Shown: one piece after another, positions 8,580 to 27,765 of the stretch
Layout of the letters: each line of letters opens with the position of its first letter
How positions within the stretch are numbered: the first letter of the stretch is position 1
Source: an uncultured Erysipelotrichaceae bacterium
GTDB lineage: Bacteria; Bacillota_I; Bacilli_A; RFN20; CAG-826
Length of the DNA: 34,165 nt
Direction of reading: 5' to 3'
Assembly: GCA_900314585.1 (NCBI GenBank)
Contig: OMVV01000004.1
Coordinates: forward strand, 1 to 34,165
The notes under the pieces: model-generated
Databases searched by the model: none
What the model saw: the letters and a program-made list of their open reading frames with translations, nothing else
Told to the model about the DNA's origin: nothing
Position numbers and translations under genes: made by a program

Positions 8580-8613
8580 TTAGTAAAAAATTAGTAGTTT
8601 TATATTGTAATAT
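8580..8613 (+). promoter_or_regulatory. Promoter of the Fic-like gene with a TTAGTA direct repeat
   Basis: TTAGTA occurs at 8580-8585 and again at 8591-8596, an 11-bp period. GTTT and a -10 box TATATT (8601-8606) follow. The same arrangement precedes dnaG at 27729-27755. From TATATT the expected start of transcription is near 8613, directly before an in-frame ATT. Confidence 0.55.
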
Positions 8614-10005
8614 ATTTTTCGTTTCTCAGACGAAAAGTATTCCACTCGTCCAGAAGTCGCGTCCGCATTAGGGACAAATTTAATCGAACCAATTTGGAAT
8701 ACAATTTTATTGTATCGAAAAACATATCGTCGTCAGATTAATGTTTTTGATATCACAAAGGTTCCATTTACAGTTACATACGTTCCAAGTATCAGTGAGA
8801 AGATTGAAGCTCTCGAAGAGAGTATTTCCAAATACATCGTTGATTTTGGTGGACTTGTTGATGGATCATTATCAAAACAAACCATCTTTCGCGATGCTTG
8901 CATACATAATCTTCGTTATATCTCTAAGGTTAACAAAGTTAATATCAATGATGTTGCCCTAGGAAATATCGTCGATTACAAGAATACTGATTCATTATAT
9001 GAACCTTTGTTCCGTTATTTCTCTGCCATTGTCCATTTAGAAAAGAATCCAACCGAGAAGTTTAACTTAAACACTCTCGGATTATATTATTCAATCATTT
9101 CTGATGAAGAAAGAACCGAATCTTTCTTTAGAAAGAGTGAGATTGAAGCTCAATCACAACGCTTATTGATTAACCGTGAATACGTTGGAGCGCCTACCCA
9201 AGACATTCCGGCTTTAATGAATAACCTTATTAACTATGTTAACGATAGTAAGGATTCCTTTGTTGTTAAAGTCGCAGTCATCACCTACATGTTTAATTAT
9301 ATTAAACCATTCGAGAAATATAACTTAGAGATGGCTGCCATCATGTCTAAGCTCATCGTTTCATTATCGGATGTTGAATCAGCCGCAGCATATCTTCCTC
9401 TGGAAGCTGTTGTTGCAGACAGCGAAGGCAAGATCGCTGAAGTCTCTCGTGAAATTCAACGCTCACGCGACATGACATACCAACTCACTCGCGTTATGGA
9501 ATATTTTGATGATGCTATTCAATATGTTTCTGACCGTATAGCAAAGCTATCTGTTAGTGAAGCTCAGAATTCATATTTGTATGGCGAATCCAAAGAAGAA
9601 TTCGTCGCCGAGTTCGGTGTTGAACCATCTCCAGAAATTATCCCCGAAGAAAAGAAAGTCGAAGAACAACCTAAGGTTGCTCCTAAGAAAATAGTTCAAC
9701 ATAAACCAATTGAAGTGATAGCAAGACCTTCTAAAGAAGAAAACGATGGTCCAAGCGACAAACAACTTCGTAGAATGGCAAATGATCTTCTTGAAGAAGA
9801 CCCACTTCTTAAAAAAGGCCAAGCTCATTTCTATGTTCGTCACTGTACCAAAGGTAAATACTACACAATCCAACAATATAAGAAGTGCGAAGGCTGTGTT
9901 TATGAAACCGCTCGTACATCCATGGACAATCTAGCGCGCCTTGGCTACTACCGACGTGAACAGGTGAAAAACAAGTTTGTTTACACACCAATCGACAAAG
10001 AGTAA
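8614..10005 (+). CDS. Degenerate Fic-fold protein with C-terminal winged helix
   Basis: Coding sequence with Fic-family layout: an N-terminal helical part, the stretch VGAPTQDIPALMNNLINYV (flap and following helix in Fic proteins), a core helix ending KPFEKYNLEM (231-240), an acidic/Pro linker, and a winged-helix-like end (about 377-463) with Cys residues. Where active Fic enzymes have HPFxDGNGR, this has KPFEKYNLE: the catalytic His is Lys and the Gly and Arg are gone, so AMP transfer is not expected. Reading upstream of TTG 8710 gives 32 further plausible residues (for example TRPEVASALGTNLIEPIW) back to the stop at 8608-8610. The only start-like codon placed well against the promoter is ATT 8614; TTG 8710 is the alternative. 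An operon with the next two genes is likely. Confidence 0.7.
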   Translation: MFRFSDEKYSTRPEVASALGTNLIEPIWNTILLYRKTYRRQINVFDITKVPFTVTYVPSISEKIEALEESISKYIVDFGGLVDGSLSKQTIFRDACIHNLRYISKVNKVNINDVALGNIVDYKNTDSLYEPLFRYFSAIVHLEKNPTEKFNLNTLGLYYSIISDEERTESFFRKSEIEAQSQRLLINREYVGAPTQDIPALMNNLINYVNDSKDSFVVKVAVITYMFNYIKPFEKYNLEMAAIMSKLIVSLSDVESAAAYLPLEAVVADSEGKIAEVSREIQRSRDMTYQLTRVMEYFDDAIQYVSDRIAKLSVSEAQNSYLYGESKEEFVAEFGVEPSPEIIPEEKKVEEQPKVAPKKIVQHKPIEVIARPSKEENDGPSDKQLRRMANDLLEEDPLLKKGQAHFYVRHCTKGKYYTIQQYKKCEGCVYETARTSMDNLARLGYYRREQVKNKFVYTPIDKE

Positions 10006-10022
10006 AATAGGGAGACGAAATT

Positions 10023-10259
10023 ATGCCAAACTTATTAGGATTATGGATCACTCTTGGAATGTTAGGCTTCTTTGGCCTAATGATTCTAATTATCATTCTT
10101 GTCAAAAGACGTTTTACGTCTTTGCAAATCAAGAAAGATGAGATTGATGAAGAAGAAGCAGTTCGTCAAGAGCTTGATCGTTATTTAGTTCCAATCGAAG
10201 ACGAAGAAATTCAAAAGGCTATGGCTGAAGAAGCTAAGCAAGATGAAGAAAAGAAATAG
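10023..10259 (+). CDS. Small single-pass membrane protein
   Basis: This 78-residue protein has one hydrophobic helix (about residues 4-27, LLGLWITLGMLGFFGLMILIII), then KRR and a charged, mostly acidic tail (DEIDEEEAVRQELDRYL). Positive residues after the helix suggest the tail is cytoplasmic. A Shine-Dalgarno GGGAGA precedes ATG 10023. It starts 17 nt after the Fic-like gene and its last codons overlap the start of hemW by 17 nt, so all three are probably co-transcribed. I do not recognise a family. The clean start, composition and spacing argue that it is a real gene. Confidence 0.75.
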   Translation: MPNLLGLWITLGMLGFFGLMILIIILVKRRFTSLQIKKDEIDEEEAVRQELDRYLVPIEDEEIQKAMAEEAKQDEEKK

Positions 10260-11435: not shown

Positions 11436-13442
11436 ATGAAAAAACCACGAATTGCATTATTGCTAACATTGTCAGCATTAGTCTTAAGCGGATGTAATTT
11501 ATTCCCATCAAATGGTGGAGGGAAGAAGCATCCATCAACAGGTTCTAGTGATACGTCAACTAGTTCAACTTCAGGAAGTAAAACTTCCAGTGGATCATCT
11601 TCAACAAGCGATACAAGTTCTACCTCAGGTAGTTCTTCCTCTTCTAGTTCGTCTTCTTCATCAAGCAGTTCCTCATCCAGTTCATCTTCAAGTAGTAAAA
11701 CCACTTCTACATCCTCAAGTTCCTCTTCGAGCAGTTCCTCTGAACCAGGACCAACCGATGTTTATCCAACCGCGATTTCAATTGATTCTTCAAGAACAAT
11801 TGATATTGGTGAAACAACCACATTAACTGTTACATTCACTCCATCCAACACAACTGTTAGAGATGTTGAATGGTCAACTTCAAGCGGTGCAATCGCTACC
11901 GTAGTTGACGGCATCGTTACAGGCGTGGCTGCTGGTACAGCTACGATTACAGCAACTGCCTACAATCAATATCACACAGCGCTTCATTCAACCTGCGCAG
12001 TCACCGTTAATGATTCAGGCGAAATTACAAAAACAAAATTATCATATACATATGATGACTATATTGAAAATAACGCTTATCAATTAAGCAATTGTCCACT
12101 AAGTGGAAATCCAAAACTTTTGGTCATTCCAGTGTGGTTTACTGATTCAAGTTCTTTCATCACCACAAGCAAGAAAGAAAATGTCCGAAGCGACATCGAA
12201 AAAGCCTACATTGGTTCAACTTCTGATACTGGATGGAATAGTGTGAAAACCTTCTATAAAGCCGAGTCAAAAGACAAGATGGTTTTAAATGCCACTGTTA
12301 GTGAATGGTATGAATGTGGTAAATCTACCTCAACTTATTACACCGATGGAAATGCAACTCAAAGTCTAGTGACAACCGCAACCAATTGGTATTTCTCAAA
12401 CCATAGTGATTCTAAGAGTAACTATGACACCAACAAAGACGGATATTATGATGGCATCATGCTCATTTATGGAGCCCCTGATAATCGTACTTGGGGTAAG
12501 GAATCTTATTCTAACCTTTGGGCATATTGCTATTGGATTCAACAAAACTCTGGAACTTCAACAAATCCAAATCCTAATGTTTATTTCTGGGCCAGTTATG
12601 ATTTTATGTATTCAAGTTCAAAAGCCTCTGAAAGAGCTGGTACAAGCTATGGCGGTGGCGATACTTCTCATTGCTCAATCGATGCTCATACATATATTCA
12701 CGAAATGGGCCACGTTTTAGGTCTTGAAGATTATTATGACTATGGACCAAGTGGTTTATGTCCATCAGGTGGCTTCTCGATGCAAGATTATAATGTTGGT
12801 GGCCATGATCCATATTCCGTTATGGCGTTTGGTTGGGCCGATCCATATATCCCAAATAAATCAATGTCTATTACCATAGGTAATTTCCAAGACACACACG
12901 ACTTGATTTTGCTTGCCAATCACACAGTTAATTCACCATTTGATGAATACTTATTGTTAGAGTTATACACTCCAACAGGATTAAATAAATTTGATTCTGA
13001 TTATTCATATAGAGGTAATTATCCACAAGGACCAAGCACACCAGGGATTCGACTTTGGCATATTGATGCTCGACTTACTTATCCAATCGGTGATGATTCT
13101 TGGTCAACAAACTTAAAAACCAATCCAAGTTATGGCAATGTCTATCACGCGATGTCAAACACATATGATGATAGTGAATATGGTTCAGCTCTAGGTTCAG
13201 ATTATTATGACTATAATATCCTTCAACTTATCCGTAACAATTCATCAGAAGACTATCGTCCTTCGGACGAACTTAGTGCTTCTGCGTTATTCACAAAAAA
13301 CAAAGGCAGCTTCTCGATGAGTAGTTTCTCTAGTCAATTCAAAAGAAGCGGAAAGATGAATGATAACTCAACTCTAGGTTGGTCATTTACGATCACTTCC
13401 TTATCTTCAACATCAGCGACAATCAACCTTGTCAAAGCCTAA
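11436..13442 (+). CDS. Secreted lipoprotein with Ig-like domain and M6-like zinc metalloprotease
   Basis: In this 668-residue exported protein, residues 1-19 are a signal peptide (MKKPRIALLLTLSALVLSG) with lipobox LSGC, giving lipidated Cys20. Residues about 33-102 are an almost pure Ser/Thr linker. Residues about 110-192 form a Big2-type bacterial Ig-like domain (YPTAISIDSS...AGTATITATA). The protease domain follows: HEMGHVLGLED (422-432), the HExxHxxGxxD zinc-binding and catalytic signature, and GGHDPYSVMAFGW downstream, as in immune-inhibitor-A-like M6 peptidases. DTNKDGYYDG (331-340) looks like a calcium loop. It should be anchored outside the membrane and cleave external proteins; the target is unknown. 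GGCGAGGT serves as Shine-Dalgarno. It breaks the hemW-hrcA synteny and so looks like an accessory insertion. Confidence 0.88.
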   Translation: MKKPRIALLLTLSALVLSGCNLFPSNGGGKKHPSTGSSDTSTSSTSGSKTSSGSSSTSDTSSTSGSSSSSSSSSSSSSSSSSSSSSSKTTSTSSSSSSSSSSEPGPTDVYPTAISIDSSRTIDIGETTTLTVTFTPSNTTVRDVEWSTSSGAIATVVDGIVTGVAAGTATITATAYNQYHTALHSTCAVTVNDSGEITKTKLSYTYDDYIENNAYQLSNCPLSGNPKLLVIPVWFTDSSSFITTSKKENVRSDIEKAYIGSTSDTGWNSVKTFYKAESKDKMVLNATVSEWYECGKSTSTYYTDGNATQSLVTTATNWYFSNHSDSKSNYDTNKDGYYDGIMLIYGAPDNRTWGKESYSNLWAYCYWIQQNSGTSTNPNPNVYFWASYDFMYSSSKASERAGTSYGGGDTSHCSIDAHTYIHEMGHVLGLEDYYDYGPSGLCPSGGFSMQDYNVGGHDPYSVMAFGWADPYIPNKSMSITIGNFQDTHDLILLANHTVNSPFDEYLLLELYTPTGLNKFDSDYSYRGNYPQGPSTPGIRLWHIDARLTYPIGDDSWSTNLKTNPSYGNVYHAMSNTYDDSEYGSALGSDYYDYNILQLIRNNSSEDYRPSDELSASALFTKNKGSFSMSSFSSQFKRSGKMNDNSTLGWSFTITSLSSTSATINLVKA

Positions 13443-22628: not shown

Positions 22629-23801
22629 ATGACATATACATGTTTTCAGGGCAATGATAGTGATTGTGGCTTTGCTGCTTTAAAGATGCTTTTAGCAAAC
22701 AAGGCAAATAATAAATCCTATCTATACATCCGTAAGCCCTCAAAGAAGAAAGAATACACTTTCTACGAACTGATTCGCTATGCGAAGAAGTATGGTTTTC
22801 AACTCACATCATATGAAATGCCGGTTGAAGATTTTAAAAGCATCCCAATAGGTTCTCTTGTTCTTTTAAAGGAGAATCACATGGTCTATCTTAAAAAGAT
22901 AGGAAGAAAACGAGTCACTTATTTTGATCCAGCACTTGGCAAGATGAGCGTCCCTTACAAAGAATTCATGAATAAGTGGAGAGGAATCGTCATGGAATGC
23001 GTGAACGCATTAGAAGCAGATGATCTTGATATTCCTAAGCCTAAGTTAATTCCGGTGTGGATGGATGTCATCTATTATTCACTTATCGCGGTGATCTTTG
23101 CCTCACTGATGACTGGATTTTATCTCATCAATGACCAGTCATCTGTGGTGCTGACAATGGTTTTCTTACTACTATTTGCGATTGCCCAATTAGTAGAAAA
23201 TTGGTACATAATCAAAGAATTAAAATACTTTGATAGAAGATTTTTATCACTTTTCTTCTCCCAAAAGAAAAACCAAAATATGGACAAATACAAGGACTAC
23301 ACTGAGTACAAACAAAACTACTTCATCGTCTCAAAACTTTTGGTGTCCAGCCTGATTATGATTGTGGCGTTTGGGGTGCTCCTATGCATCAATGACTATA
23401 GGAACACTTTAGTCTTCATTATTTTACTTTTAGTAAAGACATTGGATAATTTGCTCTTTTCTCGCAAGGAAGAGAAGGACGCTAAAGACATTGCGACGAT
23501 CGAGTCCCTTGCTTTTGATTGTGAACGCACTCTCACTCATGAGCTTACCAGAGCAAACTCTCTTGCGAGCAAGGTCGCGCTGAATAAATCACTTAAGCGT
23601 GTTGCATATATATTTCTGTGCTTGTGCTTAGCGGTGCTAATGATGTTGTTTAGTAATGTCACATCGACTAACTTTGTCATATTCCATTTTGGAATATATG
23701 TTTTAGTTTCTGACGCTTTTGATCACATTATTAAGTTCTTTTCTAGCTCAACTGACCGCAAAATTAAAAAGGCTCGATTCCTAGATGATTGCGATTTATA
23801 A
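22629..23801 (+). CDS. C39 peptidase fused to six-helix ABC-exporter-like membrane domain, no ATPase
   Basis: This is a 390-residue protein. Residues 1-125 form a C39 cysteine peptidase domain: Gln7, Cys13 (QGNDSDCGFAALKML), His84 (ENHMVYL) and Asp100 (YFDPALG) fit the oxyanion residue and catalytic triad. Six hydrophobic helices follow, at about 147-167, 173-190, 233-254, 258-276, 325-343 and 346-364. Short gaps within pairs and long gaps after helices 2 and 4 mirror ABC exporter membrane domains. C39 exporters normally continue with an ATPase of about 200 residues or more; here the protein ends at residue 390 and ybeY starts 40 nt later. It resembles mycoplasma peptidase-containing ABC transporters. 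A strong TAGGAGG precedes the ATG. Substrate unknown; no obvious double-glycine precursor gene is nearby. Confidence 0.82.
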   Translation: MTYTCFQGNDSDCGFAALKMLLANKANNKSYLYIRKPSKKKEYTFYELIRYAKKYGFQLTSYEMPVEDFKSIPIGSLVLLKENHMVYLKKIGRKRVTYFDPALGKMSVPYKEFMNKWRGIVMECVNALEADDLDIPKPKLIPVWMDVIYYSLIAVIFASLMTGFYLINDQSSVVLTMVFLLLFAIAQLVENWYIIKELKYFDRRFLSLFFSQKKNQNMDKYKDYTEYKQNYFIVSKLLVSSLIMIVAFGVLLCINDYRNTLVFIILLLVKTLDNLLFSRKEEKDAKDIATIESLAFDCERTLTHELTRANSLASKVALNKSLKRVAYIFLCLCLAVLMMLFSNVTSTNFVIFHFGIYVLVSDAFDHIIKFFSSSTDRKIKKARFLDDCDL

Positions 23802-24291: not shown

Positions 24292-24692
24292 TGGAACCAA
24301 AAGAACTAATTAAAAAAGCCGTTGAAGCCCGTAAGTTATCTTACTCACCTTATTCCCATTTTGCAGTTGGTGCTGCTTTACTTTGTAAAGATGGTAGCGT
24401 ATTCGTTGGCGCGAATATCGAAAACTCAAGCTATCCACTTTGCATGTGTGCAGAAAGAAATGCAATTTACAATGCTTACCTTAATGGTAAGAAGAAAGAA
24501 GATTTAGTGGCGATGGCTCTCTCGGCTGATACCGATGAACCATGTTCACCATGTGGTGCGTGCCGCCAAGTTCTTTCAGAATTATTCCCAAAAGACGCTC
24601 CAATTTATATGTCCAATCTTAAGGGTGCAGTTCAAGAAACAACAATCTCCGAACTTCTCCCATTCGCCTTCTCTGAAGACGCTTTAAAATAA
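24291..24692 (+). CDS. cdd: Cytidine deaminase
   Basis: This 133-residue homotetramer-type cytidine deaminase carries out pyrimidine salvage (cytidine and deoxycytidine to uridine forms). Cys53 and Glu55 in CAERNA and Cys88/Cys91 in PCGACRQ are zinc ligands and the catalytic acid. AGGAGG (24276-24281) lies inside the end of ybeY, and start and stop overlap, so translation is probably coupled. Its stop overlaps the era start. Confidence 0.96.
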   Translation: MEPKELIKKAVEARKLSYSPYSHFAVGAALLCKDGSVFVGANIENSSYPLCMCAERNAIYNAYLNGKKKEDLVAMALSADTDEPCSPCGACRQVLSELFPKDAPIYMSNLKGAVQETTISELLPFAFSEDALK

Positions 24693-25564
24693 TGAAAAGT
24701 GGTTTTGTCGCAATCCTTGGAAGACCAAATGTTGGTAAGTCAACAATTTTAAACGCTCTTTTAGAGCGAAAGATTTCCATTGTCACCGACAAAGCTCAAA
24801 CAACTAGAAACGCCATCAAAGGAATTTACGATGATGGTAAATATCAAATCATTTTCATCGACACTCCAGGAATTCATAAAGCTCATCATTCCTTAGGAAA
24901 AATCATGAATCGCGATGCGCTTGATTCCGCTAAAGATGTCGATGCCATTGTCTTAGTGGTGGATGCCTCACGCAAAATCGATGAAGGCGATATGTTTATC
25001 AATAAAAGCATCGCTAAAGACGCTCCACTTTATGTGGTAATCAATAAAATTGATTTAGTGCGAATCGATCAAGCCCAAAAGATTAAAGCGGATTATCAAG
25101 CTCTTTATCCAAACGCGAAGATCATCGAGATGTCCGCGATTGAAAACTTTGGTCTAGACACCCTTCTTGATGAAATCAAATCAGTTATTAAAGAAGGCCC
25201 ACGCTACTTTGATGAGAACACAATCTCAGATAAAGATAGTTCTTTCTTCGTTTCGGAAGTAATTAGAGAAAATCTTCTAAAGCTTCTAAAAGAAGAAGTG
25301 CCACACAACCTCGCTGTTAGAGTGGATGAAATCAAACACAAATCAGAATCAGTGATGATTCATGCAACAATTATTGTCGACCGCGACTCCCATAAGGGAA
25401 TTGTCATCGGTAAAGATGGCAAGCGCATCAAAGCGATCGGCATGCGCTCAAGAAAAGAGCTCGAGGAATATTTCCAAAAGCGAATCTTCCTTGAACTATT
25501 CGTTTCAGTCAAAGAAGACTGGCTAAATAACCCAAGAATTCTAAAAGAATTAGGATACAAATAA
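24692..25564 (+). CDS. era: GTPase Era
   Basis: This 290-residue ribosome-assembly GTPase binds the 3' end of 16S rRNA. GRPNVGKST (10-18) is G1, DTPG follows in IIFIDTPGIHKAHH, and NKIDLVR is G4. The C-terminal KH domain contains GKDGKRIKAIGMRSR. The start overlaps the cdd TAA and the end overlaps the recO ATG, both as TAATG, so cdd-era-recO is a tightly coupled operon. Co-location with ybeY fits a shared role in 16S maturation. Confidence 0.97.
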   Translation: MKSGFVAILGRPNVGKSTILNALLERKISIVTDKAQTTRNAIKGIYDDGKYQIIFIDTPGIHKAHHSLGKIMNRDALDSAKDVDAIVLVVDASRKIDEGDMFINKSIAKDAPLYVVINKIDLVRIDQAQKIKADYQALYPNAKIIEMSAIENFGLDTLLDEIKSVIKEGPRYFDENTISDKDSSFFVSEVIRENLLKLLKEEVPHNLAVRVDEIKHKSESVMIHATIIVDRDSHKGIVIGKDGKRIKAIGMRSRKELEEYFQKRIFLELFVSVKEDWLNNPRILKELGYK

Positions 25565-26358: not shown

Positions 26359-27732
26359 ATGGAAAAGAAATTCGATGAAATTGTTAACCATTTGATTACA
26401 AGTGGTTTCGTATACCAAGATTCAGAAATCTATGGTGGTCTATCTAACTCTTGGGACTTCGGTCCTTTAGGTGTTGAACTTAAACGCAACATCAAGAAGT
26501 TGTGGTGGCAGAAGTTCGTTCAAGAAAGTCCAACTAATGTTGGAATTGACGCGGCGATCTTGATGAATCCAGGCGTTTGGAAAGCAACTGGCCACGTTTC
26601 AACATTCTCAGATCCACTTATCGATTGCAAGGAATGTCATGCCCGTCATCGTGCCGATAGTCTTATCGAAGAACAACATCCAGAAGTTGATGTCCATGCG
26701 ATGAGCCAAGACGATATGATGAAGTTTATCAAAGATAACAAGGTCAAATGTCCAGTCTGTGGTAAATCAAATTTCACCGACATTCGTCAATTCAATATGA
26801 TGTTCAGAACTCACATCGGTGTTACCGAAGCAAGCGAATCACTTGTCTATCTTAGACCAGAAACTGCTCAAGGTATGTTCGTTAACTTCAAAAATGTTCA
26901 GAGAACATCTCGTCGCAAAATTCCATTTGGCATCTGCGCGATTGGTAAATCATTCCGTAATGAAATTACACCGGGTAACTTTATCTTCCGTGTTCGTGAA
27001 TTCGAACAAATGGAAATGGAATTCTTCTGTAAACCAGGCACTGACTTAGAATGGTTTGAATATTGGAAAGATTACTCATTAAGATTCTTGGAATCTTTAC
27101 ATGTTTCCGCTGAAAACCTTCATTACCGTGATCACGAAAAAGAAGAACTCGCTTTCTATTCCAAAGCAACATGCGATGTTGAGTACAAGTTCCCCTTTGG
27201 TTGGGGTGAAATCCTTGGCGTCGCCGATCGTACCGATTACGACTTAAAACGTCATATGGATGCTAGTGGCGAATCTTTGGAATATTTAGATCCAGAGACA
27301 AATGAAAAATATGTTCCATATTGTATCGAACCATCAATGGGTGTTGAAAGAATCTTCTTAATGGTGGCATGCGAAGCATATGATGTCGAGCAACTTGAAA
27401 AAGACAGCCGTATTGTCATGCACTTTGCACCAAAGCTTGCTCCGTATTTAGCAGCGGTTTTGCCTCTAAGCAAACAACTCGGTGATAAGGCTAAAGAAGT
27501 TCTTAACTCGCTCAACAAATATTTTTCAGTTGCATATGATGAGACTGGTTCAATCGGTAAACGTTACCGTCGTCAAGATGCGATTGGTACACCATACTGT
27601 ATTACAGTAGACTTTGACACAATTGAGAAAGACAATTGCGTAACCGTGCGTGATAGAGACACGATGGAACAAGTTCGTTTACCAATCTCTGAACTTAAAG
27701 AATACTTACAAAATAAGTTAGAAAATAATTAG
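26359..27732 (+). CDS. glyS: Glycyl-tRNA synthetase, class II dimeric type
   Basis: This 457-residue single-chain GlyRS is of the eukaryote-like alpha2 type, as in Mollicutes and some Bacillota, not the two-gene glyQ-glyS type of Bacillus. It starts with [21 protein letters not shown] (motif 1 region). A zinc-like insert follows (CKECH near 94 and CPVCG near 134), then [37 protein letters not shown] (motif 2) and GVERIF (motif 3). The anticodon domain begins near 355. A GAGGTG ribosome site precedes the ATG. The 78-nt leader is too short for a T-box. An isolated TTGACA lies at 26298-26303, with no well-spaced -10. Confidence 0.96.
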
Positions 27733-27765
27733 TAGATATTTAGTAGTTTTATAACATAGTTATAT
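27729..27765 (+). promoter_or_regulatory. dnaG promoter with a TTAGTA direct repeat
   Basis: TTAGTA at 27729-27734 (overlapping the glyS stop) and at 27740-27745, then GTTT and TATAAC (27750-27755). The ATG at 27766 is 10 nt downstream, giving a leader of about 4 nt. The architecture matches the promoter at 8580-8606 base for base in spacing. Confidence 0.55.

Follow-up and report, generated by a model that had tools for sequence, protein, structure and literature searches.

FicX, a conserved Fic-fold protein with a lost active site, as a candidate binder of phased direct repeats at dif and the replication terminus in an order of uncultured Bacilli

The dif site is where the copies of a bacterial chromosome are separated, and Xer dimer resolution at chromosomal dif is usually thought to require FtsK only. 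We know of no protein that marks the terminus in most bacteria; to our knowledge MatP, Tus and RTP are each limited to small groups. The sites of MatP, matS, are palindromes scattered over about 800 kb. RTP, which acts on Ter in Bacillus subtilis as Tus does in Escherichia coli, is a winged-helix protein. MatP has been reported from enteric bacteria only, and for most bacteria the connection between Ter and division has been called an open question (PMC7188993). The promoters of rtp and tus contain ter sites (PMC10331603). At the plasmid site cer, the accessory DNA extends over about 180 bp (PMC5357621). In Caulobacter crescentus, ZapT offers the case of a protein from a transcription factor family that has been turned to terminus binding (PMC7188993).

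Among the openly accessible papers searched, none described a Fic protein tied to dif or to the terminus, and none described repeats in phase with the dif of a chromosome. The protein described here, for which we use the working name FicX, has its closest structural counterpart in SoFic (3zcn/3eqx), a member of the self-inhibited class of Fic/Doc proteins (PF02661). Both share the fold of the Fic core and the order of Fic core followed by winged helix. Of the two, FicX alone is devoid of the catalytic residues, and it carries an extra N-terminal segment as well as a long linker between the Fic core and the winged helix.

The window analysed is a stretch of 34,165 nucleotides from an uncultured Erysipelotrichaceae bacterium, and ficX occupies positions 8,611-10,005 of its forward strand. 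The frame is open from stop to stop over about 464 codons (463 stop-free), the second of which is the ATT at 8,614. An earlier note on this DNA had proposed a protein of the Fic fold with its active site destroyed, whose intact frame and DNA-binding-like tail suggested that it had been put to a new use. Structure prediction and profile searches bear out the fold. The Pfam Fic family (PF02661) matches residues 177-242 of FicX with 27.8 bits (cut-off 24; E 4.5e-6) and also matches 23 of 28 orthologues. The AlphaFold2 model, built from an alignment of these 28 orthologues, has a mean pLDDT of 84, and a Foldseek search of the PDB with this model is led by full-length Fic proteins, with SoFic at an E-value of 2e-9 and a probability of 1.00. 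A sequence profile likewise picks up Fic proteins of known structure (4rgl, E 1e-13).

The flap segment VGAPTQDIPALM is encoded at positions 9,184-9,219 (+), and the motif HPFx(D/E)GN(G/K)R is replaced by the degenerate KPFEKYNLE at 9,304-9,330 (+). Judged by its sequence, FicX would thus not be an active Fic transferase, having neither the histidine nor GNGR. The same genome encodes an ordinary Fic protein with an intact HPFQDGNGR, which indicates that the motif loss is specific to the FicX family. Relatives were gathered from the same order and from named genomes (205 relatives, 80 kept); the records listed are metagenome-assembled or uncultured, carry labels such as Bacilli, Bacillales, Bacillota and Erysipelotrichaceae, and include Candidatus Fiminaster and Candidatus Onthovivens. 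In a set of 120 distinct FicX sequences, the first motif residue is K in 82, R in 13, Q in 7, V in 6 and E in 6, and never H; the proline is invariant, the phenylalanine is kept in 115, and N or S occupies its position in 114. None of the motif variants contains GNGR. The catalytic histidine, both glycines of the motif and the arginine are gone from all 120 orthologues, and a conserved (K/R)PFxx(Y/F)(N/S)xE stands in their place. No orthologue with an intact Fic motif was found in the order. Within a sample of 247 Bacilli genomes, high-scoring FicX proteins are present only in this order; outside it, the class-wide matches at the threshold used were other Fic-type proteins (56-70 bits) or proteins matching in the winged helix only.

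Close pairs of ficX genes give a dN/dS of 0.05-0.08, and pairs further apart give about 0.09-0.13. Since the motif loss is conserved throughout the orthologues and the gene is under such constraint, the family is not decaying. These sequences make FicX a stable family of pseudo-Fic proteins, which an order of uncultured gut bacteria has conserved. The claim of the earlier note that loss of catalysis came without decay is therefore upheld, and the copies with an intact HPFxxGNGR that would have marked this one as a relic did not appear.

That ficX is decaying, its motif loss being neutral, nevertheless draws some support from the beginning of the window copy, which is without start codon, ribosome-binding site and -10 box. 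FicX of the relatives begins MADN...AIRFSEE, and its ATG lies 7-8 codons upstream, preceded by a ribosome-binding site and a -10 box. In the window, the place of the -10 box, the ribosome-binding site, the ATG and the first codons is taken by a scar at 8,602-8,616 (+) that is about 57 bp shorter, so that the copy has no normal start. Its conserved part, which begins at the codon 8,617-8,619, follows one stop codon and two non-start codons, and no ATG, GTG or TTG occurs in the frame upstream of the TTG at 8,710. The shortening may stem from a genuine deletion silencing this copy or from faulty assembly, and the window ficX may not be translated normally. Against decay stand the 463 codons free of stops, an identity of 70% to the nearest relatives, the low dN/dS and the loss of identical residues in every orthologue. 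For the family, decay is refuted and its probability is practically negligible; at most, the window copy alone is damaged or misassembled.

The order lepA-ficX-small membrane protein-hemW, which had been read correctly from the window, holds in the genus and mostly in the order. The small protein, with one transmembrane segment, is encoded at 10,023-10,259 (+); its ORF follows ficX and precedes hemW in 76 of 79 named loci, and its product has a conserved acidic tail resembling ELDRxLxPIEDEE. The suggestion that FicX acts with this protein did not hold. The gene is also present between lepA and hemW in eight of ten order genomes without ficX, and in seven of twelve ficX-bearing genomes examined an ORF of this kind was not found. 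Because each occurs without the other, the small protein belongs to the lepA-hemW neighbourhood and not to FicX; we regard it as a neighbour, not a demonstrated partner, and have rejected it as a specific partner or Ter anchor. Two other genes of the window may be recorded here. Between hemW and hrcA, positions 11,436-13,442 encode a secreted lipoprotein-like protein with a long serine-rich linker and an HExxH peptidase-like motif (HEMGH). At 22,629-23,801, inside a run of core genes, a product with a C39-peptidase-like start is followed by several membrane segments.

The presumed DNA reader of FicX is its C-terminal winged helix (YETARTSMDxL...KNKFVYTP), encoded at 9,751-9,990 (+). It is conserved more strongly than any other part of FicX and was modelled separately with a pLDDT of 88.5, which bears out the C-terminal winged helix predicted in the earlier reading. 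The Penicillinase_R/BlaI family (PF03965) has matches in 22 of 28 FicX members at E<=1 (best 4e-4), which served solely as a lead toward DNA binding; it gave no match to the FicX of the window, and the curated cut-off for a winged helix of the BlaI/MecI/CopY type was not reached. With the winged helix alone, Foldseek returned, among others, DNA binders of the MarR type, the centromere binders TubR and AspA, and BlaI, each with an E-value above 0.001. Pfam and fold searches gave Fic and winged helix only, and no homology to MatP. For the Fic part, a role as scaffold in dimerisation or docking is probable.

Overall, the earlier reading stood as to the Fic fold, the dead site, the absence of decay and the new use, and failed as to the membrane protein partnership; it had missed the link to a repeat at dif and the terminus. 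The direct repeat TTAGTA-AAAAA-TTAGTA, of 11-bp period, is located in the ficX promoter region at 8,580-8,596 (+), 13 bp past the lepA stop. The arrangement TTAGTA-n5-TTAGTA directly 5' of the ficX -35 box is common to genomes in which the identity of the FicX protein goes down to 28%. Allowing one mismatch, the repeat was found within 170 bp 5' of ficX in 71 of 80 named loci, and in 0 of 71 control stretches taken 1.8-2 kb upstream. The exact repeat occurs five times in the 1.04-Mb genome of the window, always on the window contig. Two of these copies are in the window, the one before ficX and one between glyS and dnaG, where three 11-bp units (TTAGAA/TTAGTA/TTAGTA) at 27,718-27,745 (+) include an exact pair at 27,729-27,745. 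In other genomes the repeats are clustered too, often in 2-4 tandem units. Many are situated between convergent genes, beside deoB and a gene for a xer-type recombinase, and some just 5' of dnaG (37 bp before it), dxs and obgE. A promoter-only regulon as the whole story was rejected, as repeats also lie between convergent genes, and an RNA element in transcripts was not favoured, the sites being clustered at the terminus and phased to dif.

The dif site was searched for as ACTTCGNATAATN4ATTATGTNAA. This pattern is present once per genome in 47 of the 58 genomes of the order, in which the reversed control pattern was never found. In the genome of the window, dif is at contig position 48,040, past the end of the window, with a repeat at 48,182 and ficX 39 kb away. 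Relative to dif, the five exact repeats of this genome are at -39.5, -20.3, -8.7, +0.14 and +8.3 kb (p 9e-6). Of the 20 repeat sites in genome G043, 15 are at most 60 kb from dif (p 1e-10), and the GC skew changes sign at dif (184 kb; 181-202 kb) and again near dnaA (713 kb), which lies opposite. Ten genomes taken together have 47 of their 68 exact repeats no more than 60 kb from dif. Except in part for G020, where seven of twelve exact repeats are far from dif, the repeat sites are confined to the terminus region. In the ficX-bearing G048, G066, G069 and G076, few or no exact repeats occur at a distance from dif. Since ficX itself belongs to the terminus region, the repeat near it could be partly an effect of location. 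A parS-like centromere near the origin was considered and rejected, because the skew and the position of dnaA put the sites at the terminus.

A repeat less than 700 bp from dif is found in 37 of 39 genomes of the order with ficX and in none of nine without it (Fisher 3e-8), and the composite of dif, 104-134 bp and TACTAn6TACTA is found in 20 of 32 Bacilli genomes with ficX and in none of 215 without it (Fisher 2e-21); such phyletic counts overstate independence, since the genomes are related and the HemW tree has three changes of ficX presence, of which well supported branches force only one. The two exceptions among the 39 are G076, with a two-mismatch copy in place, and G037, where dif is at the contig end; the twelve genomes missed by the composite were missed because the pattern is strict. 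The repeat next to dif has a single orientation and starts 131-174 bp from the dif start, and 24 of 31 such repeats are within +/-1 bp of one 11-bp register. Over all sites, 54 of 64 repeats point toward dif. At distant sites this bias is weaker (27:9) and is confounded by gene direction.

Other features of these regions were observed. In 22 of 37 genomes with ficX, and in none of nine without it, the stretch from dif to the repeat contains a DnaA-box-like TTATCCACA at about +101 to +124 from dif; in the window contig it falls in the region 48,040-48,198, outside the window, and similar sequences occur in L153-L156, L159, L161 and others. The intergenic region with dif in L157 (10,504-10,977; C7 of G067, 24,503-24,992) has a dense array of nine exact repeats (22 near-exact) in both orientations. 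In the family f5, repeats are concentrated at the dif region and have often gone from the ficX promoter. The ParB_N domain was not found in seven of the thirteen ficX-bearing genomes searched, including that of the window. Two genomes of the same family, G076 and G048, have ParB and only weak TTAGTA repeats, and changes in the segregation machinery are possibly linked. FicX itself is not ParB, and the repeats do not belong to a ParB-parS system.

FicX is the best candidate reader of the TTAGTA repeats, because its winged helix is its most conserved part, its distribution matches that of the sites, and G032, with a diverged recognition helix, has no TTAGTA repeat. From the computed fold, lost active site, purifying selection, repeats, position at dif and the terminus, and co-occurrence with ficX, we infer that FicX is a pseudo-Fic repurposed as a protein binding to dif and the terminus, forming a Ter nucleoprotein complex and regulating its own gene, a reading to which we assign a probability of about two in three. 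The winged helix would read TTAGTA repeats spaced 11 bp apart, and FicX on the repeats beside dif and over tens of kilobases around it would build a nucleoprotein complex at the replication terminus. Such a complex would probably mark Ter and dif and keep them organised for Xer dimer resolution and for the late phase of chromosome segregation, and FicX on the repeat of its own promoter would mediate autoregulation. Our ranking places terminus organisation or anchoring first, an Xer accessory role second and a fork trap third. Anchoring and organisation in the manner of MatP, our first choice, is held at a little under even odds. More tentatively, and with the odds clearly against it, the dead FicX and its phased repeats might constitute an accessory complex on chromosomal dif that gates Xer dimer resolution across an order of Bacilli.

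The repeats could also be read by another protein of the same distribution. An OmpR-type response regulator might bind them, ficX being a mere target or neighbour. OmpR-type boxes are typically 6-bp direct repeats with 5-bp spacers, so the format and the 11-bp period of the repeat would suit such a regulator, as would the sites just 5' of dnaG, dxs and obgE. Yet the strongest sites are at dif between convergent genes, where no promoter is needed, and the sites are concentrated at the terminus and their presence tracks ficX over the 247 Bacilli genomes; we consider this reader unlikely. A purely local role for FicX, as an ordinary transcription regulator acting on itself, dnaG, dxs and neighbours, is very unlikely; the link to dif would then follow from gene order. 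The position of the repeat before the -35 box of ficX and shortly before dnaG, together with a winged helix resembling BlaI/MecI repressors, would agree with that role, whereas the 37 of 39 against 0 of 9 at dif with a conserved phase would not. Neither would the sites 3' of convergent genes, nor the presence of as many as nine exact copies within a single dif-bearing intergenic region.

A polar replication fork trap, formed by FicX on oriented repeats as by RTP or Tus on Ter, is improbable as well, even though 54 of 64 sites face dif, the sites are intergenic and arranged around the flip of the GC skew, one is in the ficX promoter as in those of rtp and tus, and RTP too has a winged helix. 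The orientation bias fades with distance and tracks gene direction, polarity is mixed in G043, and one site, near plsY, has the wrong orientation for a trap in several genomes. In part of the f5 genomes, all that is left is a dense array of both orientations at dif itself, which would make a poor trap. Furthermore, a fork trap needs no fixed helical phase to dif; this phase favours a protein complex at dif, for Xer control or anchoring, over a pure fork trap.

Taken as a terminus-organising protein, FicX shares features with several known systems. The spread of its repeats over tens of kilobases gives the resemblance to MatP/matS, where repeated sites are likewise confined to the terminus region around dif. 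Protein and site are unrelated in the two cases, matS being a widely dispersed palindrome and the FicX-linked sites 11-bp direct repeats, one of them phased to dif. The promoter site, and perhaps the polarity, give the resemblance to RTP-Ter and Tus-Ter, whose sites are oriented around the terminus. RTP and Tus have no Fic domain, and the TTAGTA repeat does not follow the A/B half-site design of RTP and has a fixed spacing to dif. In this last respect it resembles the Xer accessory complexes of PepA and ArgR at cer, where the sequences bound by the accessory proteins stand a defined distance away from the Xer core; the fixed distance and phase expected of such an element are observed here. PepA and ArgR complexes act at plasmid sites, whereas the accessory-like TTAGTA sequence flanks chromosomal dif. 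ZapT, unlike FicX, belongs to the MerR family, shows little sequence specificity in vitro and has no site at dif.

The Fic fold, the winged helix and dif are known parts, and functional precedents exist. The system of FicX and its repeat is considered new because neither the protein nor the site is homologous to those of known terminus systems. The composite of dif and repeat provides a one-line sequence test of terminus position in these uncultured genomes. With a short, precise repeat in fixed phase to dif, a role in dimer resolution becomes directly testable. If the proposed reading is true, these bacteria would have an independently evolved terminus system, in which an enzyme scaffold has traded catalysis for a role at a DNA site.
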